A stretch of DNA of 64,000 nt. Origin: Aliivibrio sifiae (GTDB lineage: Bacteria; Pseudomonadota; Gammaproteobacteria; Enterobacterales; Vibrionaceae). Position numbers and translations under genes: made by a program. The notes beneath the pieces are model-generated. The model searched no databases. It was not told the origin of the DNA and saw only the letters and a list, made by a program, of their open reading frames with translations. This document shows positions 22,007 through 40,079 of the stretch, piece after piece. Position 1 is the stretch's first letter. The number at the start of each line of letters is the position of its first letter. Where the stretch lies: assembly GCF_002954715.1 (NCBI RefSeq), contig NZ_MSCP01000002.1:65010-129009 (forward strand), in the 5' to 3' direction.

Positions 22007-22306
22007 CGGTAAATCCTCTTTGTGCTTATGCGAAGGTTCTTATTATCTAATTAATGGAAGCGATGTGGTGCTTCCCTTTGCCTAACTAACGGTTGTTATT
22101 TTGTATGGGAGTAAGATATACAAAAAAGAGGGGTACATAAAATTATGATTACTTATTATTTTAATAACAAAGTGTAATGATCTATTGTGGGGAGAGCAGA
22201 TATTTGGAATCGAGCCTGAATGTCGATGTGATTAAGATAAGAGCTTTGGGTGCAGCGAGTAAACTAGGCTATTATTCATTACCTTCTAAATTTGATTGAT
22301 GTCCTT

Positions 22307-23218: not shown

Positions 23219-23238
23219 ACGGAAGTTATTCGTACTGG

Positions 23239-23333
23239 TCAAATATGAGTTTTTTATCCTTAAAATAATATTTTTATTCATATATGGCGAAATACATAGT
23301 ATCATTATTATGTTATTTGCCAAATATGAATAA
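23239..23333. promoter_or_regulatory. probable HipB operators upstream of hipBST
   Basis: The arms TTATTCATATATGGCGAAATA (23274-23294, split: TTATTCATAT then ATGGCGAAATA) and TATTTGCCAAATATGAATAA (23314-23333) are inverted repeats of each other with one or two mismatches and a 19-nt spacer. A third partial copy, TCAAATATGAG, lies at 23239-23249. Multiple symmetric sites before a HipB gene fit autoregulation. Confidence 0.6.
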
Positions 23334-23384
23334 ACTAATCAGTTTTTTATTCGTATATTCATTTTTGATAAGAGGGTTGCTGTT

Positions 23385-23696
23385 ATGGATACTAATGAAG
23401 CTCAAGTAAAGCTAACTTCGCTATATAATGAAATGCAGGGGCTTATCGATGAGATCACACAATTAAAAACAAACCCAAGCAGTAAACTCCGTCTTGATCA
23501 TCAATATGCAGAGCTAGAAAAAATACTTCTAGAAAAAAGAAAGCAATTGGGCATTTCAATTGAAGATCTTGAACTGCAAACCGATATTTCTTTTTCAACG
23601 ATACAGCGGATCTTAAAAGACCCTCATAATGCCAAGTTATCTAATGTTCTTAGCATTTGTAATGAATTAGGAGTGAAGTTATGGATAGAAAAGTAA
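23385..23696 (+). CDS. hipB: HipB-like antitoxin/regulator of a HipBST system
   Basis: 103 residues. After an N-terminal coiled segment (about 1-45) comes a HTH_3 domain (LEKRKQLGISIEDLELQTDISFSTIQRILKDP) and a short C-terminal helix. HipB proteins bind the operon promoter and assemble with the kinase toxin. The stop overlaps the hipS start by 16 bp, so the genes are coupled. Inverted repeats 50-150 bp upstream are likely operators. Confidence 0.85.
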   Translation: MDTNEAQVKLTSLYNEMQGLIDEITQLKTNPSSKLRLDHQYAELEKILLEKRKQLGISIEDLELQTDISFSTIQRILKDPHNAKLSNVLSICNELGVKLWIEK

Positions 23697-23992
23697 ATGT
23701 CTATCTGTATAAGCAACTCGCAGGGATATTAACTCAAAAAGACAATTGCTTTACTTTTACTTATAGCGAGAGTTATCGAGGAAAACCACTGTCTTTAAGC
23801 TTTCCCCTAAACGAGAAAAGCTTTACAGAAGAGCGCTTACATCCATTTTTTGCAAGCCTAGCCCCTGAAGGTTGGTTAAAAAAACGGTATTCAGAAATTC
23901 AAAAAATAGATGAAAACGATACGTTAGGCATGTTAATACAAAATGGAAATAACCTAATTGGGGCAGTTCGTTTAGAGAGGTTTGAAGAATAA
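23681..23992 (+). CDS. hipS: HipS-like antitoxin (stand-alone HipA N-subdomain 1)
   Basis: 103 residues corresponding to only the N-terminal subdomain of HipA (Couple_hipA): VYLYKQLAGIL, SLSFPLNEKSF, HPFFASLAPEGWLKKRYS, ENDTLGMLIQNGNNLIGAVR. In HipBST systems this separate small protein, not HipB, neutralises the kinase. Trp65 in the PEGWL motif sits where the HipS family has a conserved Trp that approaches the kinase active site (family knowledge). It overlaps hipB by 16 bp and hipT by 1 bp (TAATG). Confidence 0.88.
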   Translation: MDRKVNVYLYKQLAGILTQKDNCFTFTYSESYRGKPLSLSFPLNEKSFTEERLHPFFASLAPEGWLKKRYSEIQKIDENDTLGMLIQNGNNLIGAVRLERFEE

Positions 23993-25029
23993 TGTATCCA
24001 GAAGATAAATGTTTAATCAGCCTGACTCCTTTAACGGATAAGAACCAGTCTCAAGATGAATATACCAAAGCAGGAATTAAATACTTAACGGCTGATCCAA
24101 CAACAATAATGCGCCTACCTTTTACACGTAGCGGATTTATTACGGAGCAACCTAAAAAACAAAAAGGAATGAGTATTTCAGGGTATCAACCCAAGCTATC
24201 ACTTGTTATCAATGAACAACAATTTAAAGTCGTAGAGAACGAAGCGCAGTACATCCTTAAGCCATCACCAGAAGAGTTTCCTCATTTAGCAGAAAATGAG
24301 CACGCCACTATGCTAGTGATGAAAGATTTAGGCTTTGTTATACCGGCGTTTGGGCTCGTTCGATTTAAAAAAGATGAGCAAGGTAATGAAGAGAAGGCGT
24401 TTATCATTAAACGTTTTGATCGCAATGAAAACAAAGAGCCGATCCATCAAGAGCAATTAGATGCGGCAATGAATATTGCGGAAAAGTATGGGAAAATCAA
24501 AGATGATGGCGAGAACTATGTGAGCTATGAGCGGATCTGGGATTTCCTTTCTGAAAACTTAGATAATACGTTACAACTTAAAAAAGATTTTTTTCGCCGA
24601 GTATTTGTTGCTTATCTATTGGGCAATAACGATTTACACCTTAGAAACTTTGGAATACTTCGCCCTGAAGTTGCAGAAGATAGTTTAGCCCCTGTTTATG
24701 ATTATGTATCAGTTGCGCCATATAAAGAATACATCAGTGACCGAATGGCATTACCGTTGCTTAAATTGGAGGAAGGGGGAGAGGTGCAAAGCAATGGCTT
24801 TGAGAAGCACTCGCACTACACTGGCTATGATTTTATTCAGTTTGGTAACGCCATGAATCTAAGCCCAAAAATGACAATTAAACTGATGGATGACGTACTA
24901 AAGCATAAGGATCGTATTTTAAATATATATCGAGAAAGTTTTATATCTAAAGAGCAATATAGTGCAATAGAGAAGTGGATAATTTCGATAGCGTTTTATG
25001 CACAAGATCGGGATGAGTACATCCCTTAA
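23992..25029 (+). CDS. hipT: HipT-like serine/threonine kinase toxin
   Basis: 345 residues, a HipA-like kinase lacking the N-subdomain 1 that is encoded separately as hipS. A Gly-rich loop with the autophosphorylation-type motif SIS (Ser61 and Ser63 in GMSISGYQPKLS), lysine AQYILKP, HipA-specific AENEHATM, a catalytic loop GNNDLHLRNFG (Asp214, Asn219) and metal-binding DYVS (Asp237) are all present, so the kinase should be active. Studied HipT phosphorylates tryptophanyl-tRNA synthetase, halting translation; the target here is inferred. Confidence 0.9.
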   Translation: MYPEDKCLISLTPLTDKNQSQDEYTKAGIKYLTADPTTIMRLPFTRSGFITEQPKKQKGMSISGYQPKLSLVINEQQFKVVENEAQYILKPSPEEFPHLAENEHATMLVMKDLGFVIPAFGLVRFKKDEQGNEEKAFIIKRFDRNENKEPIHQEQLDAAMNIAEKYGKIKDDGENYVSYERIWDFLSENLDNTLQLKKDFFRRVFVAYLLGNNDLHLRNFGILRPEVAEDSLAPVYDYVSVAPYKEYISDRMALPLLKLEEGGEVQSNGFEKHSHYTGYDFIQFGNAMNLSPKMTIKLMDDVLKHKDRILNIYRESFISKEQYSAIEKWIISIAFYAQDRDEYIP

Positions 25030-25251
25030 CTCAACAATACCGTGATCTTGAAAGTGATACCAATTCCATTAATTATCTGATCATTATTCCTGGTTAAATA
25101 ACTCAATAGTTGCGTTAAAAATTATTATTGTAGAATAACTACTTATAAGAATTTTTTCCTTACTCTTAAGTGATTTTCCTGCGTAATAAATAGATCACCT
25201 AATTAGTTACATTGGTATTAATATTTTTATTGTCAGCGAGTAACGCTACCT

Positions 25252-26130
25252 CTAAGAAAAGTAATTTGAAATAAAATCAATGAAAGCACGAATGCGTTGG
25301 GGTTGGTGCTCACTATCTTTATAGACCATATACATAGGTAACTTCACCGTTTTATATTGTTCTAATATTTGCGTTAGTGAGCCCGATTTTAATTCGTGTT
25401 CTACCATCCATTTTGGCATTGCCGCTACGCCTTGCCCTAGTTTTGCCATTTGAACCAGCATCTCTGGGCTGTCACTTCGTACTTGTTCTTTTATCTTAAC
25501 TTTTGTCTCTTTTCCATCATTGAAGCGCCATAGGTTCGATGGTGTCGATAACGAATAAGTTAGGCACTGGTGTTGTGCTAAATCCTCAGCAATTTCGATA
25601 GTAGGATGTTTTTCTAAATAATCAGGAGATGCAAAATAGATGAGTTCATTATCTATTATCCATCTTGCTTTTAGCCCTGAATCTTTGAGATAGGCCGCTC
25701 GAATAGCAATGTCTATATCGCTTTCAACTAAATCAACAAATTTATCCGATACCGATACATCAACAGAAAGCTCTGGATGTAAATTTAGGAATTCATTGAG
25801 TGGCACAGAGAGTTTTTTAACACTGAAAGCACTAGGAACAGACAGCTTTAAAGTGCCAGAGATGGACGTTTGTTCCTGTCGTAATTGAGATTCAACAAGG
25901 TTCATTTCATCAGTAAGTTTCAGCGCTAAATTTAAATATTGTTTACCGCCTGTTGTTAGACTGATAGCGCGAGCGTGACGATGAAATAAAGTAATGCCTA
26001 CTTGTTTTTCAAGCCATGCAATCTTTTTACTGACCGCGCTTTGGGTCGTATTGAGTTCGTTCGCAGCAGCAGTAAATGTGCCTAAGCTAGCGACACGACT
26101 AAAGACTTTTAAACAATCAAACTTATCCAT
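25252..26130 (-). CDS. LysR-family transcriptional regulator
   Basis: About 292 residues: helix-turn-helix (GTFTAAANELNTTQSAVSKKIAWLE) plus effector domain with VDLVESDIDIAIRAAYLKDSGLKAR. The start is set at ATG 26130 because AGGA precedes it at proper spacing; the ATG 6 bp earlier is too close to the same site. It is divergent from the DoxX gene at 26230 (100 bp), the probable target. Confidence 0.9.
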   Translation of the reverse strand: MDKFDCLKVFSRVASLGTFTAAANELNTTQSAVSKKIAWLEKQVGITLFHRHARAISLTTGGKQYLNLALKLTDEMNLVESQLRQEQTSISGTLKLSVPSAFSVKKLSVPLNEFLNLHPELSVDVSVSDKFVDLVESDIDIAIRAAYLKDSGLKARWIIDNELIYFASPDYLEKHPTIEIAEDLAQHQCLTYSLSTPSNLWRFNDGKETKVKIKEQVRSDSPEMLVQMAKLGQGVAAMPKWMVEHELKSGSLTQILEQYKTVKLPMYMVYKDSEHQPQRIRAFIDFISNYFS

Positions 26131-26229
26131 AGTCATTCCTATTTGGAATAGTAATAAGCCTAATATTAGCGTTCTTCTGTCCCAATTGGAATGCTTTAAT
26201 GGCTCTATTGTTTATAGAGGAGTTAAATC

Positions 26230-26592
26230 ATGTTGTTTATTCAAGGGTTATTAATCGCGTTTTTCTTGTTTGCTAGTTCAGTCAAAATGTTTGGTTGGGT
26301 AAAGGCGATATTTGAGCCACAACTTGCCTTCTTTCATCGTTATGGCCTGAACCGTGCGGCAATGTTTGCCGTGGGTGTTATTGAAGCCACAGGTGCTGTT
26401 GTGATGTTAGTGGGAATGTTTACAGCAAACCCAGAATTAAGTGCGATGGGTGCTAGTTTGATCACGCTAACTTCCATTGGGGCGATGTTCTTTCATTTTC
26501 GATTTGATACTTGGAAAGACGCGATTCCATCAATGGTGACGTTAGTGCTGTCTCTTATTATTGCGTTACCTTTATTAGAGAGATTGATTTAA
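26230..26592 (+). CDS. DoxX-family membrane protein
   Basis: 120 residues with four hydrophobic segments and the DoxX-like pattern FASSVKMFGW, FEPQLAFFHRYGL, FAVGVIEATGAVVMLVGMF, ITLTSIGAMFFHFRFDTWKDAIPSMVTLVLSLIIALP. The start follows GAGGAG. These small inner-membrane proteins are linked loosely to redox or thiol stress. It is divergent from a LysR gene and ends in a strong terminator. Confidence 0.85.
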   Translation: MLFIQGLLIAFFLFASSVKMFGWVKAIFEPQLAFFHRYGLNRAAMFAVGVIEATGAVVMLVGMFTANPELSAMGASLITLTSIGAMFFHFRFDTWKDAIPSMVTLVLSLIIALPLLERLI

Positions 26593-26607
26593 TTATTTTT
26601 GAATAAA

Positions 26608-26634
26608 AAATGGTGCGACACTGTCGCACCATTT
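26608..26634. terminator. terminator with 13-bp perfect stem
   Basis: AAATGGTGCGACA and its exact complement are separated by one base, with A-rich and T-rich flanks. It lies between convergent doxX and the acetyltransferase gene. Confidence 0.85.
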
Positions 26635-26682
26635 GAAGGATTTGATAGTAACTACCTGATGATATTCAGTAACCGCTAAGTT

Positions 26683-27318
26683 CTAATTAAACGCATCATA
26701 TGATGTAATGGCTTGTTTTAGTTGCTCAAAATCAGGGCTGCATAAATGCGGTTTGAGAGCATTGAATTTATCAGTAGGCCATTCGTAAACTTTAAAAGAT
26801 AACAGCTCTTCTATCATGGAAGGCTCAAAGCGATATGTCACGTGTTTTGCTGGAGAACCTGCAACCACGCTATATGGCTCAACATCTTTGGTGACGACAC
26901 TATTTGCGGCAATCACGGCACCTTCTCCAATCGTTACTCCGGGCATGATCATTGATCTCATGCCTAACCAAGCGCCATCATGAATGTGAGTATCCCCTTT
27001 GTTCGCATAAGAGTCGTCAATAAAGTCCATAAATGGGTATAAACAAAACCAATCTATTCTGTGGTTATGGTTTCCGCCCATTAAGATAATAACTTCAGCG
27101 GCGATACAGACGTAGTCACCAATATGTAGCTTATCGATTTCCCATCTTGGTTCCCATTGACGGCTGATTTTATCTCCGTGTAAATACCTCACAACAGAGT
27201 CTTCAAAGCCGTTATTCCAGCAATCACTGTAATAGCTATGGGTGCCTTTAATGTGAATGTTTTTGTTGGTTACGACTTCATGAAGTAACTGAAACTTTGA
27301 CCAGTGTTTTTCTTGCAT
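26683..27318 (-). CDS. CatB/Vat-type hexapeptide acetyltransferase
   Basis: 211 residues. The left-handed beta-helix repeats are visible (LHIGDYVCIAAEVIILMGGNHNHRIDW; IHDGAWLGMRSMIMPGVTIGEGAVIAANSVVTKDVEPYSVVAGSPAKHVTYRF). The catalytic His lies in the GGNHNHR loop typical of xenobiotic acetyltransferases (streptogramin Vat and chloramphenicol CatB types). The chromosomal setting and lack of mobile flanks suggest a housekeeping or surface-sugar role rather than acquired resistance. It is monocistronic. Confidence 0.85.
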   Translation of the reverse strand: MQEKHWSKFQLLHEVVTNKNIHIKGTHSYYSDCWNNGFEDSVVRYLHGDKISRQWEPRWEIDKLHIGDYVCIAAEVIILMGGNHNHRIDWFCLYPFMDFIDDSYANKGDTHIHDGAWLGMRSMIMPGVTIGEGAVIAANSVVTKDVEPYSVVAGSPAKHVTYRFEPSMIEELLSFKVYEWPTDKFNALKPHLCSPDFEQLKQAITSYDAFN

Positions 27319-27511
27319 AATAAACCTTTAAACTTATATAAAAATAATGGGGTTAGCATCAATTTAAAATAAGTCAGTGGATTCTAGGCTGTTTCAGTAG
27401 GGGGGTAAGCTTCATGATTATTGTCCTTGCCGTTTGAGGGGATAATAACACATTGAGTTATTTTATAGGCTACTTTTGATATTTAGAAATCTTGAGAAGC
27501 CAAAACAAAAA

Positions 27512-27543
27512 AGGCATTAGCAACTTTGATGTTGCTAATGCCT
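27512..27543. terminator. terminator with 13-bp perfect stem
   Basis: AGGCATTAGCAAC pairs perfectly with GTTGCTAATGCCT across a 6-nt loop. It is preceded by A's on the left, just downstream of the minus-strand Cys-rich gene. Confidence 0.8.
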
Positions 27544-27572
27544 AGAATTTGTCTGTTGAGCGTTATTAACGC

Positions 27573-27947
27573 TTATTCAACGTCGCAATCAGTACAGCAT
27601 TGTAGAGCGATTTCGTGCTCAAATACCGCTACCTCGCTACCATCTTTTAGCAACTCAGCGATTTCATCTGCAACTTCTTTCTCATCGTCTGCTTCAATTT
27701 GACCTTCTAGATCTTCTTCAGAGTAACCGTAGAAATTCAGCAATAAGTAATCACGAGCTTCTGCTTTAGTACAAGTCACGTTTACTGAAAGATCGGCTTC
27801 AACGCCTTCTTGCTCGATAATTGCAGCCGCTTGGGCTACGACATCATCTTTCATTGTTGCTGTTAACCAACCAAGATCAGTGTTTACTTTGGTTTTTTTA
27901 CAGTTAAAACAAGGCAGTTTGTGAAAGTAATATTGAAAGTTAGTCAT
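27573..27947 (-). CDS. small acidic protein with CxxC and CCxxC ends
   Basis: 124 residues. An N-terminal PCFNCKK and a C-terminal QCCTDCDVE could form a zinc ribbon linking both ends. The middle is acidic and helical (EEDLEGQIEADDEKEVADEIAELLKDGSE). No signal peptide. I do not recognise the family. It is monocistronic with its own terminator and marks the left edge of the accessory stretch beginning near 28 kb. Confidence 0.65.
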   Translation of the reverse strand: MTNFQYYFHKLPCFNCKKTKVNTDLGWLTATMKDDVVAQAAAIIEQEGVEADLSVNVTCTKAEARDYLLLNFYGYSEEDLEGQIEADDEKEVADEIAELLKDGSEVAVFEHEIALQCCTDCDVE

Positions 27948-28107
27948 AGGTAATTTCTCTTTGAGTGTTGTATAGCAAGATTATGCGTATTTTGGGGAAA
28001 AATACTATCTTAAATTAGGTTATTGCCCCGAAACTAATTTTCTGCGGACTCAAAGATAAGTAAATGAACCTCTAGGGCCTTAATTCAAAGATACCTATAT
28101 TTTACTG

Positions 28108-28176
28108 TGACACTCTTGTTGTCACTAAAGGATAAATACGCCATAAGTGTGACACTTTCATCCAGAAAAGTGTCAC
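28108..28176. promoter_or_regulatory. two adjacent GTGACA/TGTCAC inverted repeats
   Basis: GTGACA-N7-TGTCAC at 28108-28126 is followed by GTGACACTTT-N8-AAAGTGTCAC at 28149-28176 (10-bp perfect arms). They occupy an otherwise gene-free 400-bp gap (27948-28347) at the left end of the Sir2/cREC/GIY-YIG stretch. They may be operators, a structured RNA or an end of the element. Confidence 0.4.
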
Positions 28177-28347
28177 CCTTAAAAGGGTATCTGTCATGAA
28201 TAGGTTTGAAATCCAACGCAATATCGAGCGAAGATAAAGAGGATTGTTAAACAAGTCATACTTACGCTTGAATATCAATCCCTTGATATCATTGAATAGT
28301 TTATTAATACTGACAAAAAACCAGAGGGGTGATTAAAATATGTTCAG

Positions 28348-28644
28348 TTAATTATGAGTAAATGAAAGTAATGCTATGTTGGCTATACTTAGTGACATCT
28401 TATGCTCCGCCGACGAGGCTCTATGTATCTGAATCATTAGTAGCTTAAAATCTCGCACAGCAACAGCTTCTTCGACCCACAATACTACATCATAGCCAGT
28501 ACTATGCTCATCGTATCTTAAGTCATGATCAATACTGATTTCAGTGACATCGCCTTTCTCCAAAAACACAATAGCATCTTCTGGCCAATAAACTCTGCAC
28601 CAACCATGGAGGGTTTATCTCTTATCATCTAAGTAGACCATCAT
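28348..28644 (-). pseudogene. cREC (cyclic-phosphate-processing receiver-like) gene with in-frame stop
   Basis: The frame from ATG 28644 reads MMVYLDDKR, then TAA (28615-28617), then continues TLHGWCRVYWPEDAIVFLEKG, ISIDHDLRYDEHSTGYDVVLWVEEAV. This is the whole N-terminal half of a cREC domain, paralogous to the intact protein at 31012-31629 (LDD, LDHDL and GTGY..LLW motifs). The start overlaps the Sir2 stop as ATGA, so Sir2 and cREC were a translationally coupled pair. The single stop replaces one codon after LDDKR. The C-terminus (about residue 75 on) is also weakly conserved. I call it a pseudogene; restart at 28569 could give 73 residues. Confidence 0.75.
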
Positions 28645-29363
28645 GTGCATTTACTATTAACTTCCAACTTTCGCCAGTTCTTACATATAACAGGAACTAC
28701 ATTTGTTGCCTTACCTCTCATGAACTTGTAACTAAAAGGAATTTTCCCTTTAATTTCAAGGGAAACAAGAGTTTTCTCAGCCCTAAATGGGGCTTTATTG
28801 AGTAAGCTAGCGGCTGGCTGAACTGATAGAGAGCTTCCAACCCCAAGTACTTTGTAAGCAGACTTAATATGTTCCCTCGCTTCCTCTAAGTGCATCACAG
28901 GTTCGCCAAACCAAACAATATTAGGTCTCAATTGGCTATTTAATTCACAATATTGACCAATCTCAATCCGCTTATCCCAGTCATAAGTAATTGAAGGTTC
29001 AATACTACTTTGTGCGCGGTTTAACTGCCCATGTAGGTGAATAACTTTCGAACTGCCAGCTCTTTCATGCAAGTCATCAACATTCTGAGTAATAATGACC
29101 ACGTCATATACATCCTCTAACTCAGCTAGTGCTATGTGAGCTTTGTTAGGTTGTGCATTTTTTGCGGCAACTTTACGCTGATTGTAAAAGCTCAGCACTA
29201 GCTTAGGGTTACGCTCAAAGGCATCTTTCGTTGCTAGTTCATGAATAGAATAACTTTCCCATAAGCCATCACCATCTCGAAAAGTGCGCAAACCACTTTC
29301 GGCACTTATACCCGCGCCTGTAAACACAACAATCTTTCTCTTTCCTAGATTATTCACCATCAT
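28641..29363 (-). CDS. Sir2-family NAD-dependent deacylase lacking the zinc module
   Basis: About 240 residues from ATG 29363 (GGGAG upstream). NAD-binding and catalytic motifs are intact: VFTGAGISAESGLRTFRDGDGLW, TQNVDDLHERAG, catalytic His in VIHLHGQLN, RPNIVWFGE and GVGSSLSVQPA. The four Cys that bind zinc in CobB-type sirtuins are missing (one Cys in QYCELN), as in a known zinc-less bacterial subgroup. FYNQR provides the YxxR pair associated with desuccinylase/demalonylase activity. The product could deacylate proteins or consume NAD in a conflict system. It is coupled by ATGA to the broken cREC gene and is divergent from the WYL regulator (115-bp shared promoter). Confidence 0.88.
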   Translation of the reverse strand: MMVNNLGKRKIVVFTGAGISAESGLRTFRDGDGLWESYSIHELATKDAFERNPKLVLSFYNQRKVAAKNAQPNKAHIALAELEDVYDVVIITQNVDDLHERAGSSKVIHLHGQLNRAQSSIEPSITYDWDKRIEIGQYCELNSQLRPNIVWFGEPVMHLEEAREHIKSAYKVLGVGSSLSVQPAASLLNKAPFRAEKTLVSLEIKGKIPFSYKFMRGKATNVVPVICKNWRKLEVNSKCT

Positions 29364-29477
29364 TTTCTCCCATGATCTAACTGTTGTGATTAATAGTAAG
29401 ATGATAAGCGACACATCTTGACGCATAGCGTAATATTCTATACAAACAGCAATAACCAATTGATGTATAGGAATATA

Positions 29478-30461
29478 ATGGACAGCGGATTGAGAAAAAT
29501 ATCAGTGCTAGCTAAGTTGTCACGACACAGAAAAATATCAGCTCCTGAAATCCAACAACAACTGATGGATGAAGGTGAATATGTATCACTTAGGACTGTA
29601 CAAAGGGATTTAGTGGAGCTTTCAAGTAAGTTTCCGGTGTGTAGTGACGACAGTAAGCCTATTGGGTGGCATCTAAATAAAAACGCTGAACTCACTTTAC
29701 CTGATTATGATTTAACTACAGCAATCACTTTTTCAATGGTTGATAAATATCTATCTAATTTGCTCCCTCCAGCTATGTGTGACCGCCTGACTCCTTATGT
29801 AAGGACGGCTAATCAGTTTCTAGCCGCTGAAAGTAAAAATCCAGCGAGTCAATGGCCAAAAAAGGTAATAGTTCACTCAAGAGGTCTGCCTTTGCAAACA
29901 AGTACAATTTCAGCTGAGACTATAGAAGCAGTCTATAGCTCTTTGCTATCTGAAATGTGTCTACAGCTTACCTATAAGTCTTTGAAATCAGGAAAAGAAA
30001 CTAACTTTGTTTTTCACCCTCATGGCATTGTCGTGCGCAGTGAGCGTTCATACCTAGTCGGAAAATATGATGGTGATGAAGACATGAAGTCATTGCTGTT
30101 AAGCCGAATTGTAAACGCCGAGAAATCCCAAAGAATTGCAGATATAGACGTGAGCTTTTCTCTTGTAAATTACGTTAACAATGGAGATATGGAAGTAAAA
30201 AGAGGTGAGCGTAAATTAGAAGTAAAGCTATGGATAACAGAAGTTTTAGCAAAGATTTTAGTAGAAACACCGCTATCAAAAGAACAAATTATTAGTCCTG
30301 AAGGGGATGATTTTACAGTGAGCGCATTTGTAGATGACACAGATGAGTTCAGGCATTGGATTTTATCAATGTGTAATCATGCGACCGTGCTATCTCCTAG
30401 ATCTTTACGAGAAGAGATCAAAGATACCTTACTAACCAGTATTTCTTACTATGAGGATTAG
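29478..30461 (+). CDS. WYL-domain transcriptional regulator
   Basis: About 327 residues from ATG 29478 (AGGA 5 nt upstream; an in-frame ATG at 29418 has no site). The N-terminal DeoR-like helix-turn-helix (KISAPEIQQQLMDEGEYVSLRTVQRDLVELS) is followed by a WYL domain (LTYKSLKSGKETNFVFHPHGIVVRSERSYLVGKYDG) and a WCX-like C-terminal extension. WYL regulators commonly control phage-defence operons and sense nucleotides or nucleic acids. Here it faces away from sir2 and is 2 bp upstream of a GIY-YIG gene, so it probably regulates both directions. Confidence 0.9.
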   Translation: MDSGLRKISVLAKLSRHRKISAPEIQQQLMDEGEYVSLRTVQRDLVELSSKFPVCSDDSKPIGWHLNKNAELTLPDYDLTTAITFSMVDKYLSNLLPPAMCDRLTPYVRTANQFLAAESKNPASQWPKKVIVHSRGLPLQTSTISAETIEAVYSSLLSEMCLQLTYKSLKSGKETNFVFHPHGIVVRSERSYLVGKYDGDEDMKSLLLSRIVNAEKSQRIADIDVSFSLVNYVNNGDMEVKRGERKLEVKLWITEVLAKILVETPLSKEQIISPEGDDFTVSAFVDDTDEFRHWILSMCNHATVLSPRSLREEIKDTLLTSISYYED

Positions 30462-30463
30462 AC

Positions 30464-30988
30464 ATGACAACTAACGAGAACTTTGTACACAATACTCCAA
30501 TAATTGATGTTTATTGGGAAGGCCCTTACACCATAGATAATATTGATGAAGCACAGAAAAGTGCTCACTGTTTATATCAAGTTTATGGGCCACACCCAGT
30601 CTATGGAATTAGCACTTTACTCTACATAGGGAAAACCGAAGCACAGACAATTGATAAGCGGATTAAGCAACATTCTTGGATTTCTAACCAAGCGGACGAG
30701 TGCAAAATTTATGTTGCGACATGTGCACTTTTTTCAAACTGGAAAAATTGGGGAGGAGACGAGCGAGAAAGATACGAGAAATTTGAAGAAATCAATGGAA
30801 TAACAATTTCCAACCTCGAAGCACTTCTAATTTACGCTCATCAACCAAGTTACAATAGTCAAAGCCTAAAATCTACAGGCTTTACTAAGAAGGCATTTCG
30901 TATATTTAATTCAGGTTCACGGGTATTACTATTACCTGAAATCAGTACTCAATTTTATGCAGATCCAAATGTGACACATCCAGAGTAA
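30464..30988 (+). CDS. GIY-YIG-like nuclease-fold protein, copy 1
   Basis: 174 residues. The GIY-YIG core can be traced: CLY (36-38) in place of GIY, LLYIG (Tyr54), Arg66 and His70 in DKRIKQH, metal-binding Glu119 in NLEALLIYAHQPSYN and Asn131. All catalytic positions are present, so it may cut nucleic acid. A conserved C-terminal block (FRIFNSGSRVLLLPEISTQFY) is specific to this group. It lies 2 bp after the WYL gene (operon) and is paralogous to the protein at 32139-32672. The role in the locus is inferred. Confidence 0.75.
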   Translation: MTTNENFVHNTPIIDVYWEGPYTIDNIDEAQKSAHCLYQVYGPHPVYGISTLLYIGKTEAQTIDKRIKQHSWISNQADECKIYVATCALFSNWKNWGGDERERYEKFEEINGITISNLEALLIYAHQPSYNSQSLKSTGFTKKAFRIFNSGSRVLLLPEISTQFYADPNVTHPE

Positions 30989-31011
30989 GACGATTTAAGT
31001 GAGCGATTTAG

Positions 31012-31629
31012 TTAGTCGATGATATAGATTTTAATAATACAGTGCGATAGAGGATGTCGCGCTGATAAGTATACTTTCTCAATAAATTTGGGAGATAATG
31101 TTGAGCAGCTAAAAGCATTGGCATCAGTAACGCTAACAATATTACCCGAACGGTTATATGTCGTAATACAATAATCAAACTCGAAATCATCACATCCGCT
31201 AGCAAGTCCCTCTTCAGCTTCGTATAATTCTCGTAAAGGTTTACTTAATTCAAAAACAAGTTTGGAGATACATAACAGTTTTTCATTTAGTTTTTTGACC
31301 TTTGATAATTTAACTCTTTTAAAAGATTTGTTCTTTTTAGCCAAAATTTGGATAGCTTCTATTGCAGCAAGCATTTTAGAGCGAGCTGAGGGGTTTGAGC
31401 TATGTATAGAAATAATACTTGGTGGTTCATAACCATTTATTACAACATGTTCTTCTATCCAAAGTAACACGGTATATCCTGTGCCTATACCTTCATCATC
31501 ACCTAAATCATGATCGAGGCTAAGAGCTGTCACATTGTGTGTTTTCAATATTTCAATGGTTTGCTGTGGTGTATATGTCCTTGTCCAACCGTTTGGTGTT
31601 GTTCGACAATCATCGAGATAAACTTTCAT
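31012..31629 (-). CDS. cREC-domain protein with a C-terminal extension
   Basis: 205 residues. Residues 1-100 are a receiver-like cREC domain: MKVYLDDCRTTPNGWTRTY, ALSLDHDLGDDEGIGTGYTVLLWIEE and ISIHSSNPSARSKMLAAIE. cREC domains were predicted from comparative genomics to process cyclic phosphates in RNA or NAD-derived conflict pathways; activity is unproven. Residues 100-205 form an unknown Lys-rich/helical plus strand-rich extension absent from the paralogue at 28348. The ATG overlaps the preceding gene's stop by 4 bp. It converges with GIY-YIG copy 1 (23 bp between stops). Confidence 0.8.
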   Translation of the reverse strand: MKVYLDDCRTTPNGWTRTYTPQQTIEILKTHNVTALSLDHDLGDDEGIGTGYTVLLWIEEHVVINGYEPPSIISIHSSNPSARSKMLAAIEAIQILAKKNKSFKRVKLSKVKKLNEKLLCISKLVFELSKPLRELYEAEEGLASGCDDFEFDYCITTYNRSGNIVSVTDANAFSCSTLSPKFIEKVYLSARHPLSHCIIKIYIID

Positions 31630-32066
31630 AAGGTCACCACTGAGAACTCAAAATGTATTTGCCGTTGAACATTTGGTAAAACTGAATAAGTTGCTCTTGC
31701 CACAACAGTTAATAGTAACTCCCATGTTGGAAATTGGTTTGATGTGATTTTTGACACAAATGCATTGTCGGATAAATAGACAATTTCTCCCTTAAAGTAC
31801 CTTTGTCCATTATAGTCATAGAGAGGCATAAGTTCCGGTGGTTGAAAGTGCATTAACTCGAACTCAATAAGTTTGCTCACAATGGTAAGCAAACTATCTC
31901 CACAAGAAGCGAATTCAAGCTTTTCAATTAAATGAGATAAAAATAAACATTCAGTTACTGACTCACCATACTTCTCATATAGTCTGGAAATATCTTCACA
32001 GTTGTGGAATATCTGGTGTTGAATTGCAAAATAGTGCATAGCGAAGCGAAAGGTGTTGTTAGGCAT
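31626..32066 (-). CDS. unknown protein encoded with cREC
   Basis: About 146 residues from MPNNTFRF at 32066 (GAGAG 5 nt upstream; an ATG at 32102 is also in frame). It is soluble, helical in the first half (FAMHYFAIQHQIFHNCEDISRLYEKYGESVTECLF) and strand-rich later (YNGQRYFKGEIVYLSDNAFVSKI, IHFEFSVVTL). It has no family I recognise. It overlaps the cREC start by ATGA, so the two products are probably made in fixed ratio and may interact. Confidence 0.75.
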   Translation of the reverse strand: MPNNTFRFAMHYFAIQHQIFHNCEDISRLYEKYGESVTECLFLSHLIEKLEFASCGDSLLTIVSKLIEFELMHFQPPELMPLYDYNGQRYFKGEIVYLSDNAFVSKITSNQFPTWELLLTVVARATYSVLPNVQRQIHFEFSVVTL

Positions 32067-32138
32067 AAAAACTCTCTCTAGTTGGTTGAAGAGAGTATGC
32101 ATTGAGGATGCGACAGGGGCTGTCGTATTAAATGCTAA

Positions 32139-32846
32139 TCAGGATTGTTCAAGATCCAAAGGCAGTGCTTGTTTACTATCAGAATAAAACTGTGTGCTTA
32201 TTTCTGGTAGCAACAATGCTCTTTTTCCCGTATTGAACAGGCGAAATGGTTTTGCCGCAAAAGACGTCGACTTTAATCCCGCACTAGTGTAGCTCGGCTG
32301 GTGTGCATAGATTAATAGTGATTCGATAGCTGACAGCGTAATGCTCTTGAAGTCGTAGCGATCATATCGTTTTCTCTCATCCTTGTTCCAAGCTTTCCAG
32401 CCAGCAAAATTTCCGCAGGAAGCAATGTAAATTTGACAAAGATCAGCTTGGTTTTGAATCCAAGTATGCTCCTCAAGTCGTATGAAAATTTCATCTCTCT
32501 TTGACATACCAATGTAAAGCAAACTATCACAGCCATAGACAGGGTGACTGCCGTAAATTTGATAGAGACAATGTTCCTTAATTTCCTTAAGTTTCTTTAA
32601 CGCATCTGATGAGTATGGACCTTCCCAATAAGCATCAATAATTGGTACTGCTTCGTTTTCTAAATTACACATATTTGCCGGGCTTTGTCGCTCTCGATTA
32701 TGGGTTAGTAAGCGATAGTTAACAGGCTTGGACGTAAATGGACAATCTAGTACCTGTATATCCAGCTTATCGGCAAATGTTGTTGCGATACTCTCGGTCA
32801 CCACCGCAATGCAATTACTAGTAACAACCATAGACATTAGCGACAC
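32139..32846 (-). CDS. GIY-YIG-like protein copy 2, fused in frame to a LysR tail
   Basis: 235 codons from a GTG at 32846. The first 58 residues are the end of a LysR effector domain. From MCNLENEAVPIIDAYWEG (ATG 32672) the rest parallels GIY-YIG copy 1: CLYQIYGSHPVYG, LLYIG, IRLEEH, IESLLIYAHQPSY, FRLFNTGKRALLLPEISTQFY. More than half the residues match by eye. The Asn after QPSY is Thr here, while Tyr, Arg, His and Glu remain. The native start is probably 32672, but it has no good ribosome site, so expression may now depend on the upstream fusion. It is first in a minus-strand operon with the unknown protein and cREC. Confidence 0.75.
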   Translation of the reverse strand: MSLMSMVVTSNCIAVVTESIATTFADKLDIQVLDCPFTSKPVNYRLLTHNRERQSPANMCNLENEAVPIIDAYWEGPYSSDALKKLKEIKEHCLYQIYGSHPVYGCDSLLYIGMSKRDEIFIRLEEHTWIQNQADLCQIYIASCGNFAGWKAWNKDERKRYDRYDFKSITLSAIESLLIYAHQPSYTSAGLKSTSFAAKPFRLFNTGKRALLLPEISTQFYSDSKQALPLDLEQS

Positions 32847-32870
32847 AAGAGACGTACATTCAACCGCTCT
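32673..32870 (-). pseudogene. C-terminal relic of a LysR regulator at the island edge
   Basis: The frame upstream of GIY-YIG copy 2 reads VECTSLVSLMSMVVTSNC, IAVVTESIATTFADKLDI and QVLDCPFTSKPVNYRLLTHN. These match the last effector-domain segment of NodD/LeuO-like LysR proteins (compare the end of the LysR at 10393). The DNA-binding domain and most of the effector domain are absent upstream, and the reading frame closes at about 32892. The relic is cut exactly where the GIY-YIG gene begins. Confidence 0.7.
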
Positions 32871-32880
32871 ATTGTGGGTA

Positions 32881-32912
32881 ATGCCAGTCAGTTAAGTTGA
32901 CTGGCATTTTTT
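32881..32912 (+). terminator. strong plus-strand terminator without an upstream gene
   Basis: ATGCCAGTCA pairs with TGACTGGCAT and is followed by a T7 run on the plus strand. No plus-strand gene ends before it, since only minus-strand genes lie to its left back to 31012. It is probably left from a gene replaced by the island. Confidence 0.75.
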
Positions 32913-32998
32913 TAGTTTGATGAAGCAGAGAGAGGCACTTATTGGTTGATACGAATGGTTAGCGCAAGCAAGTGAGATCATTCGTTTATATTATCGAA

Positions 32999-33880
32999 CT
33001 ATAGTGTTAACTTAGGTTGAATAAAATCAATAAATGCTGAGATACGTTTTGCAACAGATGATGATTTATAGAACACTGCATTAATTTGTTCTCTCCCTGT
33101 ACTTGTCAGCTTCTCACTCTCTAATAGCGTAATTAACCGTCCTTCTTCAATATCTTTCTTAACCATAAAACCCGATAAACAAGCGATACCATTACCAGCT
33201 AAAGTTAGTTGTCGAACGGTTTCTCCATTACTAGATGTCAGTATGGGACTTAACGATTCAAAACCTTTCAAAGGCCAGACATTGAGAATTTTAGGCCCCG
33301 TAAATCCAATTGTGTCATGCTTAACTAAATCACTGCATTTCTTTGGAATCCCCCTATGTGATAAATAATCAGGAGTAGCAACAATATATAATAAACTGCG
33401 TCCAAGTAATCGAGCATGAAGTGTCGAGTCATTGAGAACACCAATTCTAATCGCTAAGTCGGTTTTCTTTTCCAATAGGTCAACAAAACCTTCATTAGAA
33501 GTGAGTTCCAAATCGATATGTGGGTATTCTTGATTAAATGCTTGTATTAGAGGTATGAGCTGATGGAAAACAAATGGACTGGCCGCATCTACTCGTAAGC
33601 GCCCTTTTGGTAACTCGCCGCGAGTGATGATCTCTTCCTCTGCTAGTTGGATCTTAATTAATCCAACTCGTACCGACTCTATAAATTGACGCCCTTCGTC
33701 GGTTAACTCTACTCGCCTAGTTGTTCGGTTAAGAATCGAGACCCCAAGTTGTTTTTCTACCTTACTCACCGCTCTTGATACACGAGCAACTTGAATATCT
33801 AATGCCTCTGCAGCTGCCGTAAATCCGCCACTATCGACTACCGTCAACAATATTTCTAAATCGTCAGACCGAGTTCTCAT
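32999..33880 (-). CDS. LysR-family transcriptional regulator
   Basis: 293 residues: helix-turn-helix (GGFTAAAEALDIQVARVSRAVSKVE) and effector domain (VDLLEKKTDLAIRIGVLNDSTLHARLL, SGFMVKKDIEEGRLITLLE). It is divergent from the MFS exporter gene at 34067 with a 185-bp gap, the classic arrangement for a LysR regulator of an exporter. Confidence 0.9.
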   Translation of the reverse strand: MRTRSDDLEILLTVVDSGGFTAAAEALDIQVARVSRAVSKVEKQLGVSILNRTTRRVELTDEGRQFIESVRVGLIKIQLAEEEIITRGELPKGRLRVDAASPFVFHQLIPLIQAFNQEYPHIDLELTSNEGFVDLLEKKTDLAIRIGVLNDSTLHARLLGRSLLYIVATPDYLSHRGIPKKCSDLVKHDTIGFTGPKILNVWPLKGFESLSPILTSSNGETVRQLTLAGNGIACLSGFMVKKDIEEGRLITLLESEKLTSTGREQINAVFYKSSSVAKRISAFIDFIQPKLTL

Positions 33881-34066
33881 ATCATTCCTTTTTCTGTTTT
33901 TTACTATCTTTTATTGCATATATAACAAATATCTTTTGTTAAAGCCTCTATTTTTCTCAACTATTGTTCCAAGCATAATGCCTTCATTGAAACAGATCGC
34001 GGTATCACAGGTAATCAACTTCACCTCATATCGCTCTATATAATACTAAATATAAGTGAGTAAATT

Positions 34067-35257
34067 ATGCCCTTAGCACTTCTTGCATTGACGCTCAGCG
34101 CCTTTGCTATAGGAACAACAGAATTTGTTATTGTTGGGTTGCTCCCAACAATGGCTACCGACTTAAACGTCTCTTTACCATCCGCAGGGCTTTTAGTTAG
34201 TCTTTACGCCCTTGGTGTTGCCATTGGCGCGCCAGTTTTAACTGCGCTTACGGGTAAATGGAATCGAAAGCACGTATTACTAAGCGTCATGTCTCTTTTT
34301 GTCGCAGGTAATCTACTCGCATGGCAAGCTCCTAGCTATAGCACCTTAATCGCTGCCCGAATTTTGACGGGTTTAGCACATGGTGTGTTCTTCTCTATTG
34401 GTTCGACTATCGCTACAGGTTTAGTTTCTAAAGAAAAGGCGGCCAGTGCCATTGCTATTATGTTTACAGGTTTAACTGTAGCATTAGTCACTGGTGTTCC
34501 ACTTGGTACTTATATCGGTCAAGCTTTTGGTTGGCAGTCAACGTTCCTTATTGTGGCCGTTTTAGGTTTAGTCGCGTTAATTGGTAGTGCTTTCTTAGTA
34601 CCGAATAACCTTAAACAACCTCCAGTGTCAAAACTATCTTCACAACTGAAGGTACTAACACAACCACGATTACTATTGGTCTATGCCATCACGGCATTAG
34701 GCTACGGTGGGACATTTACTGCATTTACGTTCCTTGCCCCTATTTTAGAGCAAGTTTCAGGATTCAACCCTAGCGCTATTAGTTTAATTATGTTGGTGTA
34801 TGGTGTTTCTGTCGCTGTTGGTAACATTTTTGGCGGGAAAATGGCGGATAAAATTGGTCCAATCAAAGCGCTGACTATCATTTTTTCAGGTTTAGCTGCT
34901 ATCTTAGTCGTATTTAATTTTACTGCAGTTCACCCTATTGCAGCAGTGGCGACTATCTTAGTTTGGGGAGCGTTTGCCTTTGGGAATGTTCCAGGGCTGC
35001 AAGTGTATGTCGTAAAACTAGCAGAGAAACATACTCCTGATGCTGTTGATGTAGCTTCTGGATTTAATATTGCTGCTTTTAATGTGGGTATTGCTCTTGG
35101 TTCTTGGGGAGGCGGCTTGATTGTTGCGAAAGCAGGACTTATGCATACGCCATGGGTTGGCGCTATCATTGTTCTTATTGCACTAGCTCTCACTCGTTAT
35201 AGTGGTCGACTAGACCGTCGTAACGAAGAAAAATGCGAAGCGCTTAAATTAGCGTAA
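34067..35257 (+). CDS. MFS exporter (AraJ/YdhP-like DHA1 family)
   Basis: 396 residues, 12 predicted membrane segments. It starts MPLALLALTLSAFAIGTTEFVIVGLLPTMA, the typical DHA1 opening. The GK-W-R-K loop between TM2 and TM3 and a second loop (GGKMADKIGP) are present. Family members export sugars, arabinose analogues or drugs. Control by the divergent LysR gene is likely. Confidence 0.9.
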   Translation: MPLALLALTLSAFAIGTTEFVIVGLLPTMATDLNVSLPSAGLLVSLYALGVAIGAPVLTALTGKWNRKHVLLSVMSLFVAGNLLAWQAPSYSTLIAARILTGLAHGVFFSIGSTIATGLVSKEKAASAIAIMFTGLTVALVTGVPLGTYIGQAFGWQSTFLIVAVLGLVALIGSAFLVPNNLKQPPVSKLSSQLKVLTQPRLLLVYAITALGYGGTFTAFTFLAPILEQVSGFNPSAISLIMLVYGVSVAVGNIFGGKMADKIGPIKALTIIFSGLAAILVVFNFTAVHPIAAVATILVWGAFAFGNVPGLQVYVVKLAEKHTPDAVDVASGFNIAAFNVGIALGSWGGGLIVAKAGLMHTPWVGAIIVLIALALTRYSGRLDRRNEEKCEALKLA

Positions 35258-35354
35258 ACAAAATTTTTTAAATTTGACTATTGTTTGTTGGTAATTTTGC
35301 AAGTGGAGTATGAGGAGGAACTCCATTTTTAGTGGATAACAACTCTAAGCTATT

Positions 35355-35386
35355 TTGGGGCAGTAGCAGGTTAGCTATTACCCCAA
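35355..35386. terminator. hairpin between convergent MFS genes
   Basis: TTGGGG...CCCCAA arms with additional pairing (GTAGC/GCTAT region) and T-rich and A-rich flanks. It lies between the stops at 35257 and 35406. Confidence 0.6.
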
Positions 35387-35405
35387 AGCTTACACAGTGT
35401 GAACC

Positions 35406-36611
35406 CTAAACCTCTCCCGCCACCGCGCATTGGCCTTCAATCATTATCTTCTGTTTCTTCTCTAGTATTTCAAATACAATCAACAACACCGCAGCTATAA
35501 CAGCACCAACAAAGCATAAATACAGTGCGCTGTAGTAGTTGTATAACTCACCCACCACACCCACCATCACGCTTGATACCAACACACTGATATTTAACAT
35601 GTTTGAGAAAAGGGTAGACGCAGTACCTAATCGGTCTTTCATCATATCTTGTAATGCCACCATACCTAGCGTTGCACAAACACCAATAAAGAACCCATTT
35701 AATATTTGAGCAATAAGCATTGAGGTAAAACTCGTACTTGATAGCATAACAAGAAAGAAAAAAGCACCAGAGATAACACCAAGAATTATCACTCTAATTG
35801 TCCCTAATTTTTCAGCCATTTTACCTGCAGCAAGCATTACTGGGATCTCGCAGGCTGCCGCCATACCAAACATCAAGCCTAACCAACTCACATTTACTTG
35901 TAGTTCTTGTGAAAGATATAAAGGCATACTGGTGATGTATAAATTGTTGGCAGAAAAGGCAAATACAATGATAAAGCAGTATAGAACAACCATACGGCCT
36001 AATGGTTTATGTTCTGTACTCACTGCACTTCGTTCTTCTTTACTTACCACATTATCAGGAATGAATTTAGCGACGATCAAGACAGCGACAGATACTGTGA
36101 CTGCTGATACTGCAAACGCGGCACTAAAGCCAAATTGTGCTTTAAGCATAAATGCGGCAGGAGGACCAAATACCCACGCAATAGCAAGCCCTGCTCGCAT
36201 GGTAGCTAAAAAGTTTGTGCTGTTAGCTATGTGTCTATCGCCATATTCTCGGCCTAATGCAAATAATTGACCAAATGAAGCGCCACTTACACTACCAAAC
36301 ACAACTGCAACCGTTACGGCTAACCAATAATCTCGCACTACAACAAAACTAGATACCAATAATAAATAGCTAGTGAGCGATACAATTAGGATGGTTTTGC
36401 GGTTCCAATGGCTGTCTGAGCGTTTGGCAATAAAGTGAGAGACAAACACAGAACTACTTACTGCAAGCGTCATATAAAGACTGAGCATCATTGGTGATGC
36501 GCCAAGTTCTTCGACAATAAATAGGCTCGATAATGGATAAAAAAAGGCGCCGCAAAGCCCAGTAACAAAAGCAGTAAAAATAAACAATAAAGAGGTTTTA
36601 TCTTTGTACAT
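35406..36611 (-). CDS. SET-type sugar efflux transporter (MFS)
   Basis: 401 residues with 12 membrane segments. The opening LLFIFTAFVTGLCGAFFYPLSSLFIVEELGASP and the ANSTNFLATMRAGLAIAWVFGPPAAFML block resemble SetA/SetB sugar efflux transporters, which export lactose or glucosides and relieve sugar-phosphate stress. It is divergent from an AraC-type regulator (180 bp to its probable start), a likely local activator. Confidence 0.8.
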   Translation of the reverse strand: MYKDKTSLLFIFTAFVTGLCGAFFYPLSSLFIVEELGASPMMLSLYMTLAVSSSVFVSHFIAKRSDSHWNRKTILIVSLTSYLLLVSSFVVVRDYWLAVTVAVVFGSVSGASFGQLFALGREYGDRHIANSTNFLATMRAGLAIAWVFGPPAAFMLKAQFGFSAAFAVSAVTVSVAVLIVAKFIPDNVVSKEERSAVSTEHKPLGRMVVLYCFIIVFAFSANNLYITSMPLYLSQELQVNVSWLGLMFGMAAACEIPVMLAAGKMAEKLGTIRVIILGVISGAFFFLVMLSSTSFTSMLIAQILNGFFIGVCATLGMVALQDMMKDRLGTASTLFSNMLNISVLVSSVMVGVVGELYNYYSALYLCFVGAVIAAVLLIVFEILEKKQKIMIEGQCAVAGEV

Positions 36612-36791
36612 AGTGTAATTCCAAAACGAATAAGGAGGATATTTGATTTATGGGTAGTCTACTCAATCATGACTGTGGTGATTGATGTTATTCGAGCTAC
36701 CTCTAATACTATTCATTCATTTTATAAGGTCTCTTTGACAGATAAGACTCATCGCGATAGCCTGACATCTTACCCATATTTAGGAATGGCA

Positions 36792-37682
36792 ATGAAACCA
36801 TTTAAAGAGCATATCCAAGATCAACCCAGTTTTGATTGGTTATTTAGAGAGTTTCATTGCAGTGTGAAAGAGAGTGAGTTTACTTGCTCTTGGCACTATC
36901 ATTCTGAATATGAATTGGTGCTGTACCTTGATCCTGAAGAAGAGTTTCAAGGCAATTATTTTGCTGGAGATTCCATTGGTGAAGTTAATAACAACACGTT
37001 ATTACTTTATGGGCCAGGCTTGCCACATATGGTGGCAGGGCGAAGTATAAAATCAGAGCGTTTGAACAATCACCATACCGTTATCGTGTGGTTTGCTCAT
37101 CATTGGGTAGAGCGTTTACAGGTGGTGTTGCCAGAGGCGAGAAACATTAAGCGATTGTTGGATAACTCCGCGTATGGCCTTTCTTTTAGCTCAGATCTTG
37201 CGAAAAAAGTATCTAGATTGCTTAATGAAATAAAAGGGTTAGAACGCCATTATCAAGCGATAAAAATTATCGAAGTGTTGATCTGTCTTTCTGACGATAT
37301 AGCAGCAAAAAAGTTATCAACTACGCCTTATCGTATTAAGCAAGTATCAGAAGATTCAGAAGTAAACCAACGTATAGAGCGAGCTTCTCGTTATATCGAA
37401 AATTATTATGGTGATGGGATTAAAATTGCCGACTTGTGTAAGAAATTACACATGAGTGAAAGTTCGGCTTATCGAATGTTTGAGAAGCATTATGGGATGA
37501 GTTTTTCTGACCACCTAAAGCAATATCGAATAGGAAAAGCGTGTGAATTGCTAGCGAGTACTAACTTACCAATCACTCTGGTGGCTGAACAAACAGGCTT
37601 TAAAAACATTTCTAATTTCAATCGCCAATTTAAAGAGCTAAAAATCATGACGCCGACAGAGTTTCGACGTCGATTTAATTAG
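36792..37682 (+). CDS. AraC-family regulator with cupin N-terminal domain
   Basis: About 296 residues from ATG 36792 (AGGA 6 nt upstream). An in-frame ATG at 36669 would add 41 residues without a family match. The cupin domain shows CSWHYHSEYELVLYL and LLLYGPGLPHMV. The C-terminal HTHs are IKIADLCKKLHMSESSAYRMFEKHYG and LPITLVAEQTGFKNISNFNRQFKELKIMTPTEFRR. Such regulators bind sugars. It is divergent from the SET-type exporter. Confidence 0.88.
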   Translation: MKPFKEHIQDQPSFDWLFREFHCSVKESEFTCSWHYHSEYELVLYLDPEEEFQGNYFAGDSIGEVNNNTLLLYGPGLPHMVAGRSIKSERLNNHHTVIVWFAHHWVERLQVVLPEARNIKRLLDNSAYGLSFSSDLAKKVSRLLNEIKGLERHYQAIKIIEVLICLSDDIAAKKLSTTPYRIKQVSEDSEVNQRIERASRYIENYYGDGIKIADLCKKLHMSESSAYRMFEKHYGMSFSDHLKQYRIGKACELLASTNLPITLVAEQTGFKNISNFNRQFKELKIMTPTEFRRRFN

Positions 37683-37702
37683 TATTACGATGTCTGTTTA
37701 TC

Positions 37703-38668: not shown

Positions 38669-38765
38669 ATTACCTCTTAATGGAATTAATCATAAATAAA
38701 GATATTACATTGTAGTATATCAGTTGTTTAATTTTATGACTTTTGTAAATGTCACTTTGAGCTCA

Positions 38766-39971: not shown

Positions 39972-40079
39972 GAATTTTTCCGTAGTTAACTCTTCGAATT
40001 GATTCGGAAGAAAATGATTTCAGTGGTGTTGGGTTATTTGAAATACTAGGGAGTAGATAGAAAAATGCATGAGATAGGG

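Follow-up and report, generated by a model that had tools for sequence, protein, structure and literature searches.

Gene content of the locus

The window analysed here is a stretch of 64,000 nucleotides from Aliivibrio sifiae, and within it lies an inserted block that we consider a candidate WYL-controlled conflict system. The block (Table 1) carries an accessory sirtuin coupled to a gene of the cREC family, a divergent WYL-WCX regulator, two GIY-YIG-like proteins (GIYa and GIYb), a 146-amino-acid (aa) protein that we call X146, and a second cREC protein (cRECb). An earlier description made from the letters alone, the sequence-only reading, had listed a sirtuin coupled to cREC, a WYL regulator with a GIY-YIG-like gene 2 bp downstream, and a converging set of a GIY-YIG paralogue, a 146-aa protein and a second cREC. 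The sirtuin and the WYL regulator held up, as did the gap (the WYL stop is at 30461 and the first ATG of GIYa at 30464) and the convergence. The cREC partner of the sirtuin proved to be broken, and the start of GIYb had to be corrected, the upstream part of its open reading frame being the fused tail of a LysR gene. The relics described at the edges are indeed present: positions 32668-32861 match the 3′ end of same-genus LysR genes, and a terminator-like hairpin lies beyond them.

Table 1. Features of the locus, with positions in the window.
Feature	Position	Strand	Evidence or remark
Inserted block, ~4.35 kb	28321..32667		Same-genus homology stops near 28320, restarts at 32668
cREC lineage A, broken (one in-frame TAA and altered acidic motif)	28363..28644	-	Remaining open reading frame 28348-28569 matches PF20274, E 7.8e-9
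Accessory CobB/SIRT5-like sirtuin	28641..29363	-	PF02146, E 4.4e-39
Predicted WYL operator, between sirtuin and WYL	29408..29424		GCGACACATCTTGACGC
WYL-WCX regulator, BrxR/CapW-like architecture	29478..30461	+	PF13280, E 1.3e-9; PF25583, E 6.6e-12
GIYa, GIY-YIG-like	30464..30988	+	PF01541 below cutoff, E 0.002; motif residues kept in 8 members
cREC lineage B (cRECb), open reading frame	31012..31629	-	PF20274, E 4.8e-25
X146, 146-aa protein (ATG at 32066)	31626..32066	-	No Pfam, NCBIfam or PADLOC match
Second predicted operator, ~44 bp ahead of X146	32110..32126		GCGACAGGGGCTGTCGT; position same in four relatives
GIYb, second GIY-YIG-like protein (start at 32672)	32139..32672	-	57% identity with GIYa across residues 11-169; motif Asn replaced by Thr
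LysR 3′-end relic, in frame with GIYb; outside the system	32673..32861	-	Matches same-genus LysR genes
Terminator-like hairpin	32880-32908		

In the regulator, the WYL and WCX domains scored above cutoff, with helix-turn-helix (HTH) matches below cutoff only. An eight-row profile of the WYL proteins matched PafC and PafBC in the PDB; the solved BrxR or CapW was not among its PDB matches at E up to 1. The sirtuin is a stand-alone protein of 240 aa with CobB- and SIRT5-type deacylases as its best PDB matches, and it retains the GAGIS, TQNVD and HxHG-type residues. Zinc-ribbon cysteines are usual in sirtuins; a five-row alignment contained no invariant cysteine, and these cysteines are therefore not conserved here. 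The residues of the GIY-YIG motif (Tyr, YIG, Arg, Glu, Asn) occurred in order in eight aligned members, apart from the substitution in GIYb, and the GIY-YIG label of both proteins is a motif-level assignment. Against PHROG, X146 reached a weak match (E 0.046). About 100 aa at the C-terminus of cRECb (31330-31012) form an extension that a 101-aa relative in genome G029 does not have.

Seven window proteins were compared with PADLOC 2.0.0, with matches considered at E up to 1. The regulator matched general WYL models and Cas3c, and only weak matches were found besides, from GIYa to PDC-S14 (E 0.042) and from the sirtuin to PDC-S65 (E 0.0044). Sirtuins are part of the defence systems DSR, SIR2-HerA and Thoeris, and PDC-S65 was the only model matched by the window sirtuin when the defence-associated sirtuin models in PADLOC were considered. 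There was no system-defining match to a named anti-phage system among the seven proteins, in agreement with the earlier statement that no named system with this exact set was known to its author.

Recurrence and architecture

Two independent profile searches were made in the same 329 Vibrionaceae genomes, one for the WYL subfamily and one for the accessory sirtuin. The WYL subfamily was present in 10 genomes, each at 497 bits or more, with no further match at E<=1e-80. The sirtuin was present in 9 genomes at 389-470 bits, and the next match reached 216.5 bits; the second sirtuin of the window genome, encoded on another contig, scored 206 bits. All nine sirtuin genomes fell among the ten WYL genomes, corresponding to a hypergeometric value of 9e-17 with shared ancestry ignored. 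The possibility, raised in the sequence-only reading, that these genes never meet elsewhere is thus not what the genomes show, and they recur as neighbours (Table 2). What did not survive is GIY-YIG as a fixed part: the gene directly after WYL is nuclease-like in all ten loci, being GIY-YIG-like in 5/10, PD-(D/E)XK-like in 4/10 and of a third type in 1/10, making GIY-YIG one option in an exchangeable slot. Five aligned PD-(D/E)XK-like proteins, of which three occupy the slot, share invariant E, PD and ExK residues. A further PD-(D/E)XK-like gene, in convergent orientation, is present in both G029 and G039. In the 192-aa slot protein of G608, for which the libraries gave no match, a nuclease-like motif was picked out by eye.

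Table 2. Gene order at the ten WYL loci (second labels of the loci in brackets).
Genome	Before the WYL operon	WYL operon and further genes
Window	broken cREC-sirtuin	WYL-GIYa; GIYb, X146-cREC
G090 and G047 (L013)	sirtuin	WYL-GIY
G675 (L010)		WYL-GIY, X146-cREC fragment, sirtuin-cREC (frameshifted)-86 aa
G660 (L011)	139 aa and sirtuin	WYL-GIY, X146-86 aa-cREC
G029	truncated cREC-sirtuin	WYL-PD-(D/E)XK-like, then X146-cREC
G039 (L151)		WYL-PD-(D/E)XK-like, then X146-cREC fragment
G655	150 aa and sirtuin	WYL-PD-(D/E)XK-like, transposase genes, X146-like-cREC
G109	sirtuin	WYL-PD-(D/E)XK-like-X146-cREC (frameshifted)
G608	DUF4116 protein-sirtuin-cREC-87 aa	WYL-192-aa protein

In a sample of 286 Vibrionaceae, a profile of X146 matched strongly in six genomes, each of which also carries the WYL subfamily. 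This count excludes G086, where the match was marginal (E 2.7e-4) and contained one stop; G660, which carries X146 yet is absent from the matches, presumably lies outside that sample. Among 369 genomes of the class, the X146 profile found the window's own copy only. GIYa occurred in 6 of 247 Vibrionaceae, its own genome included, and a GIY profile run on 394 genomes of the order returned that genome and G256, and also G103, where the match was weak and decayed. Plasmid relatives of X146 were not found; those of GIYb came from six records, five of which matched the LysR tail only. A single-sequence search of viral contigs with X146 gave no match, and cREC relatives were present in 17 phage records, covering at most half of the query. 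When 14 system proteins were compared by tblastn with the best 80 of 99 viral sirtuin loci and with 2 viral GIY loci, GIY matches alone were returned, in a search that a divergent cREC would escape. Solo GIY relatives are encoded in two viral contigs (L133 5989-6507, L134 5986-6486) and are about 51-55% identical to the cassette protein of G149 described below.

A predicted operator shared by the modules

The inverted repeat RCGWCA-N5-TGWCGY was found upstream of WYL in all ten loci. It also stands ahead of X146 in 6/8 X146 operons (L010, L011, L136 and L151 among them, besides the window) and separately ahead of the sirtuin in L010 and L011. When the repeat was used as a search key, a further copy 8.7 kb away revealed that G029 has a second X146-cREC operon, set apart from the first and preceded by this copy. 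X146 has no repeat of its own in G655 or in G109; in the latter it is part of the WYL operon, placed after the nuclease gene. The signal of the repeat is its position at these promoters, and both this operator position and the co-occurrence of the genes exceed chance. Four other exact sites in G000 had no system gene nearby (at one, L190, there is a short, weakly WYL-like open reading frame), and a one-mismatch site at 31044-31060 in the window, within cRECb, was treated as a chance occurrence. In G608, a repeat (L193 2721-2737) precedes by about 90 bp a second, distant WYL regulator that is 24% identical to the WYL protein of L010.

More distant WYL genes were found on 17 plasmid records, and eight of these regions were viewed, four of which contained the repeat. 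On two Marinobacter plasmids it precedes both WYL and a metallophosphoesterase (L181 4940-4956, 6458-6474; L203 3690, 5208), the latter with a below-cutoff match to polynucleotide kinase-phosphatase. On a Vibrio echinoideorum plasmid (L184 6247) WYL has no repeat ahead of it; the repeat precedes a hypothetical gene, behind which an AbaSI-family nuclease is encoded. On a Rhodoferax plasmid (L205 1193, 1249) two copies precede an operon of an ATP-binding protein, WYL, a phospholipase-D-like protein and a helicase. No repeat was found in the viewed plasmid regions of Methylomonas, Halomonas, Marinomonas and Pantoea.

Selection on the genes and decay of cREC

In 16 comparisons, the ratio of nonsynonymous to synonymous substitution rates (dN/dS) was 0.10-0.36, showing that the genes of the predicted system are under purifying selection. 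WYL and the first slot gene were open reading frames in 10/10 loci and the sirtuin in 9/9. The cREC genes form two lineages that are faithful to their partners, A with the sirtuin and B with X146. Intact copies are those of window B, L011, both B copies of G029, L137 and L022; the copy in G655 has no usual start codon; and window A, G029 A, both copies in L010, and those of G109 and G039 are broken or fragments. The sirtuin-linked copy is intact in L137 and L022 and broken in the window, G029 and L010. Because cREC is often lost beside intact nuclease genes, these data suggest that it is dispensable or sometimes costly, as a signal-clearing enzyme might be.

Insertion site and mobility

The site was compared among ten same-genus genomes that carry the 124-aa gene to the left of the block (L168-L177, corresponding to about 27948-35400 of the window). 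Homology stops near 28320 on the left and starts at 32668 on the right, within the 3′ end of LysR. The LysR gene (313-314 aa) is present in G049, G010, G019 and G061, and its 5′ part is missing from the window; in G024 the right-hand transporter gene comes directly after the 124-aa gene. The cargo differs in each same-genus genome compared. On this comparison, the block is an insertion into a variable chromosomal site, as the relics at its edges had led the sequence-only reading to expect. A PADLOC scan of ten proteins from five of the ten loci gave matches in three: a type II methyltransferase and a restriction enzyme in G019, a PDC-S06 match in G029, and in G049 a Fic protein (PDC-S04), with Drt1a immediately to the left of the 124-aa gene.

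By its flanking genes, the locus recurs at several chromosomal sites in three genera. One site is shared by G029 and G039 and another by G090 and G047, and G660 and G109 have a common right-hand neighbour. The G047 locus is adjoined by Gabija GajA/GajB and an HNH-type gene (L013 10177-16346). In G256 (L022), a member of another family of the same order, a single 1919-nt unit of an attC-like repeat array is filled by GIY and the sirtuin, which share a strand, and by cREC in the opposite orientation. In G149 (L015) a solo GIY gene has an integron integrase (TIGR02249, 387.5 bits) on one side and a repeat array on the other. An integron origin of the window locus itself was rejected, since there is no repeat array at 20000-40000.

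Among neighbouring genes, a BTH_I2691-family effector of the type VI secretion system lies to the right of the G039 locus (L151 12471-14924). Elsewhere in the window, three genes at 23385-25029 encode an HTH_3 protein, a separate HipA N-terminal domain and HipA_C, a set that we take to be similar to HipBST. Rfam gave no match across the window at the gathering threshold.

A proposed WYL-controlled conflict system

We think it rather likely that the three modules of the block make up a single conflict (defence) system, controlled by WYL and with a nuclease slot whose occupant can be exchanged. Co-occurrence, adjacency, repeat copies, slot exchange, purifying selection and variable-site insertion all emerge from the sequence comparisons and form the basis of this proposal. 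In module 1, the BrxR/CapW-like WYL protein would recognise RCGWCA-N5-TGWCGY and repress its own operon, the second gene of which would be a small nuclease, GIY-YIG-like in the window and PD-(D/E)XK-like elsewhere. Module 2 would be the sirtuin with cREC, and module 3 X146 with cREC, each using the shared WYL operator or a copy of its own. By analogy with BrxR/CapW, a nucleic-acid or nucleotide ligand appearing upon entry of a phage or plasmid might bind WYL and lift the repression. Judging from the domains, the nuclease could then attack invading or cellular nucleic acid, and the sirtuin and cREC might make, or more likely clear, a product of the nicotinamide adenine dinucleotide (NAD)/ADP-ribose or cyclic-phosphate kind, tuning or ending the response. 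The sequence-only reading had offered NAD or cyclic-nucleotide signalling with a nuclease effector as a hypothesis, and had pointed to sirtuins as NAD-consuming effectors; such a role for the window sirtuin would be hypothetical, its closest solved relatives being deacylases. The type of regulator, the mobility and the neighbouring genes, for example GajA/GajB next to the G047 locus or the restriction, Fic and PDC-S06 genes at the site of the window locus, appear to make defence the likeliest purpose.

Several results weigh against this proposal. The set is not constant: the G090 and G047 loci have neither cREC nor X146; G039 is a WYL genome without the sirtuin, with WYL, a nuclease and X146 in a site that in G029 has sirtuin and cREC as well; both WYL and the inverted repeat are absent from the L022 locus of G256; and in three of the six genomes found with GIYa (G123, G149, G220) solo GIY genes occur without other parts in the stretches fetched, that of G123 being a 3.4-kb contig. 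Six of the 13 cREC copies are broken. The nuclease assignments draw on motifs and on matches below cutoff, with GIYa at 18.8 bits against a PF01541 cutoff of 22.6, a PF01541 match in 2/8 aligned GIY members, no PDB match for the GIY proteins, and a comparison of their profile with GIY-YIG proteins of the same genome that was in register and of low score; for the aligned PD-(D/E)XK-like proteins there was likewise no PDB match, and one such protein gave weak matches to PDDEXK_9 (E 0.031) and CARF_PDDEXK (E 0.0059). Across 11 genomes the repeat showed no genome-wide enrichment, its 67 sites comparing with 68 for the reversed control. If one mismatch is permitted, the window has 3 sites against 0.89 expected, and 5/100 shuffles reached that number.

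An RNA-damage response, in which WYL would sense cleaved RNA with cyclic ends, the sirtuin and cREC would heal or recycle these ends and the nuclease would trim damaged RNA, strikes us as unlikely, even though it has a published root: section 3.7.3 of one report predicts a role in RNA repair for sirtuin with cREC (PMC9503650). The Marinobacter plasmids would fit, having a related WYL gene and the repeat before a metallophosphoesterase with a possible kinase-phosphatase relationship, as would RtcB near a related WYL gene in Methylomonas, where no repeat was found. However, neither searches of the seven window proteins nor inspection of the ten WYL loci recognised an RNA ligase, a 2H or Nudix protein or a polynucleotide kinase, proteins of the PD-(D/E)XK kind mostly cut DNA, and cREC is the part most often broken.

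That broken state, together with the mobility and patchy distribution, would also suit a mobile cluster that is selfish or addictive, or a decaying passenger, with no role in defence, as would the position of GIYb, which has lost its own WYL and sits fused to the LysR tail. The low dN/dS, the consistently open frames of WYL, the first slot gene and the sirtuin, and the failure to recognise an antitoxin-like gene speak against such a cluster, and we regard it as improbable. A chance gathering of unrelated genes in a hotspot is strongly disfavoured and would be very surprising: the cargo at the site does differ among the same-genus genomes compared and one cREC of the window is broken, but the locus recurs at several chromosomal sites in three genera, there are repeat copies at each module, and G256 has the genes in a shared cassette.

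Returning to the WYL-controlled conflict system, a broader version of it is quite possible, and we offer it tentatively: a toolkit-like, undescribed immune regulon, in which one WYL repressor and its operator code would go together with a nuclease slot of exchangeable content and with sirtuin-cREC and X146-cREC modules that bring their own operator and can be detached and placed elsewhere, the plasmid repeats being part of the same code. If so, the repeat near WYL-linked plasmid genes of the restriction or RNA-end type (Marinobacter, Vibrio, Rhodoferax) would let arriving defence modules join a WYL immune programme. Common control of defence modules is little understood. Here a single predicted operator would govern cREC, a CobB-like sirtuin and a nuclease-like gene, which makes the repression, the ligand and the enzyme activity accessible to separate tests.

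Comparison with known systems

WYL regulators of the BrxR/CapW type control BREX, CBASS and other defence systems, according to the parts of three reports considered here (PMC9122601, PMC9122589, PMC9122588). As in those systems, an HTH-WYL-WCX regulator lies directly upstream of a cargo operon, and the inverted repeat has a 5-bp spacer, as reported there for two BrxR proteins. Unlike in the BrxR/CapW systems described in those parts, the cargo consists of a single small nuclease plus the sirtuin-cREC and X146-cREC modules, and repeats are found also at the separate modules.

PD-T4-3 is given as a single-gene GIY-YIG anti-phage system in a passage of PMC12409345. The present locus likewise has GIY-YIG-like proteins; neither GIYa nor GIYb matched PD-T4-3 in PADLOC, a library in which the presence of that model was unchecked. 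Chromosomal integrons carry defence cassettes, as an excerpt of PMC12409362 describes, and the single L022 unit of GIY, sirtuin and cREC and the solo GIY near the integrase in L015 resemble such cassettes; the window locus differs from them in having no surrounding repeat array at 20000-40000.

The cREC family was termed experimentally uncharacterised in 2022 in a passage of PMC9503650. The same source describes, in the sections used here, phage neighbourhoods in which a sirtuin is coupled to cREC, as in the window, and proposes RNA repair as their role. The present locus differs from those neighbourhoods in that it is chromosomal and has WYL and a nuclease, and in that no partner of the tRNA ligase, 2H, Nudix or HAD type was recognised. 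NAD-centred conflict systems containing cREC, in which cREC is tied to NAD processing and to WYL domains, share cREC with our locus, and the present gene set is not named in the passages of that report considered here (PMC7824862). A literature search recognised the architecture in no title, abstract or passage, its scope extending neither to figures nor to most subscription papers. The components and the sirtuin-cREC-WYL theme are thus already published, and what appears to be new is this architecture.

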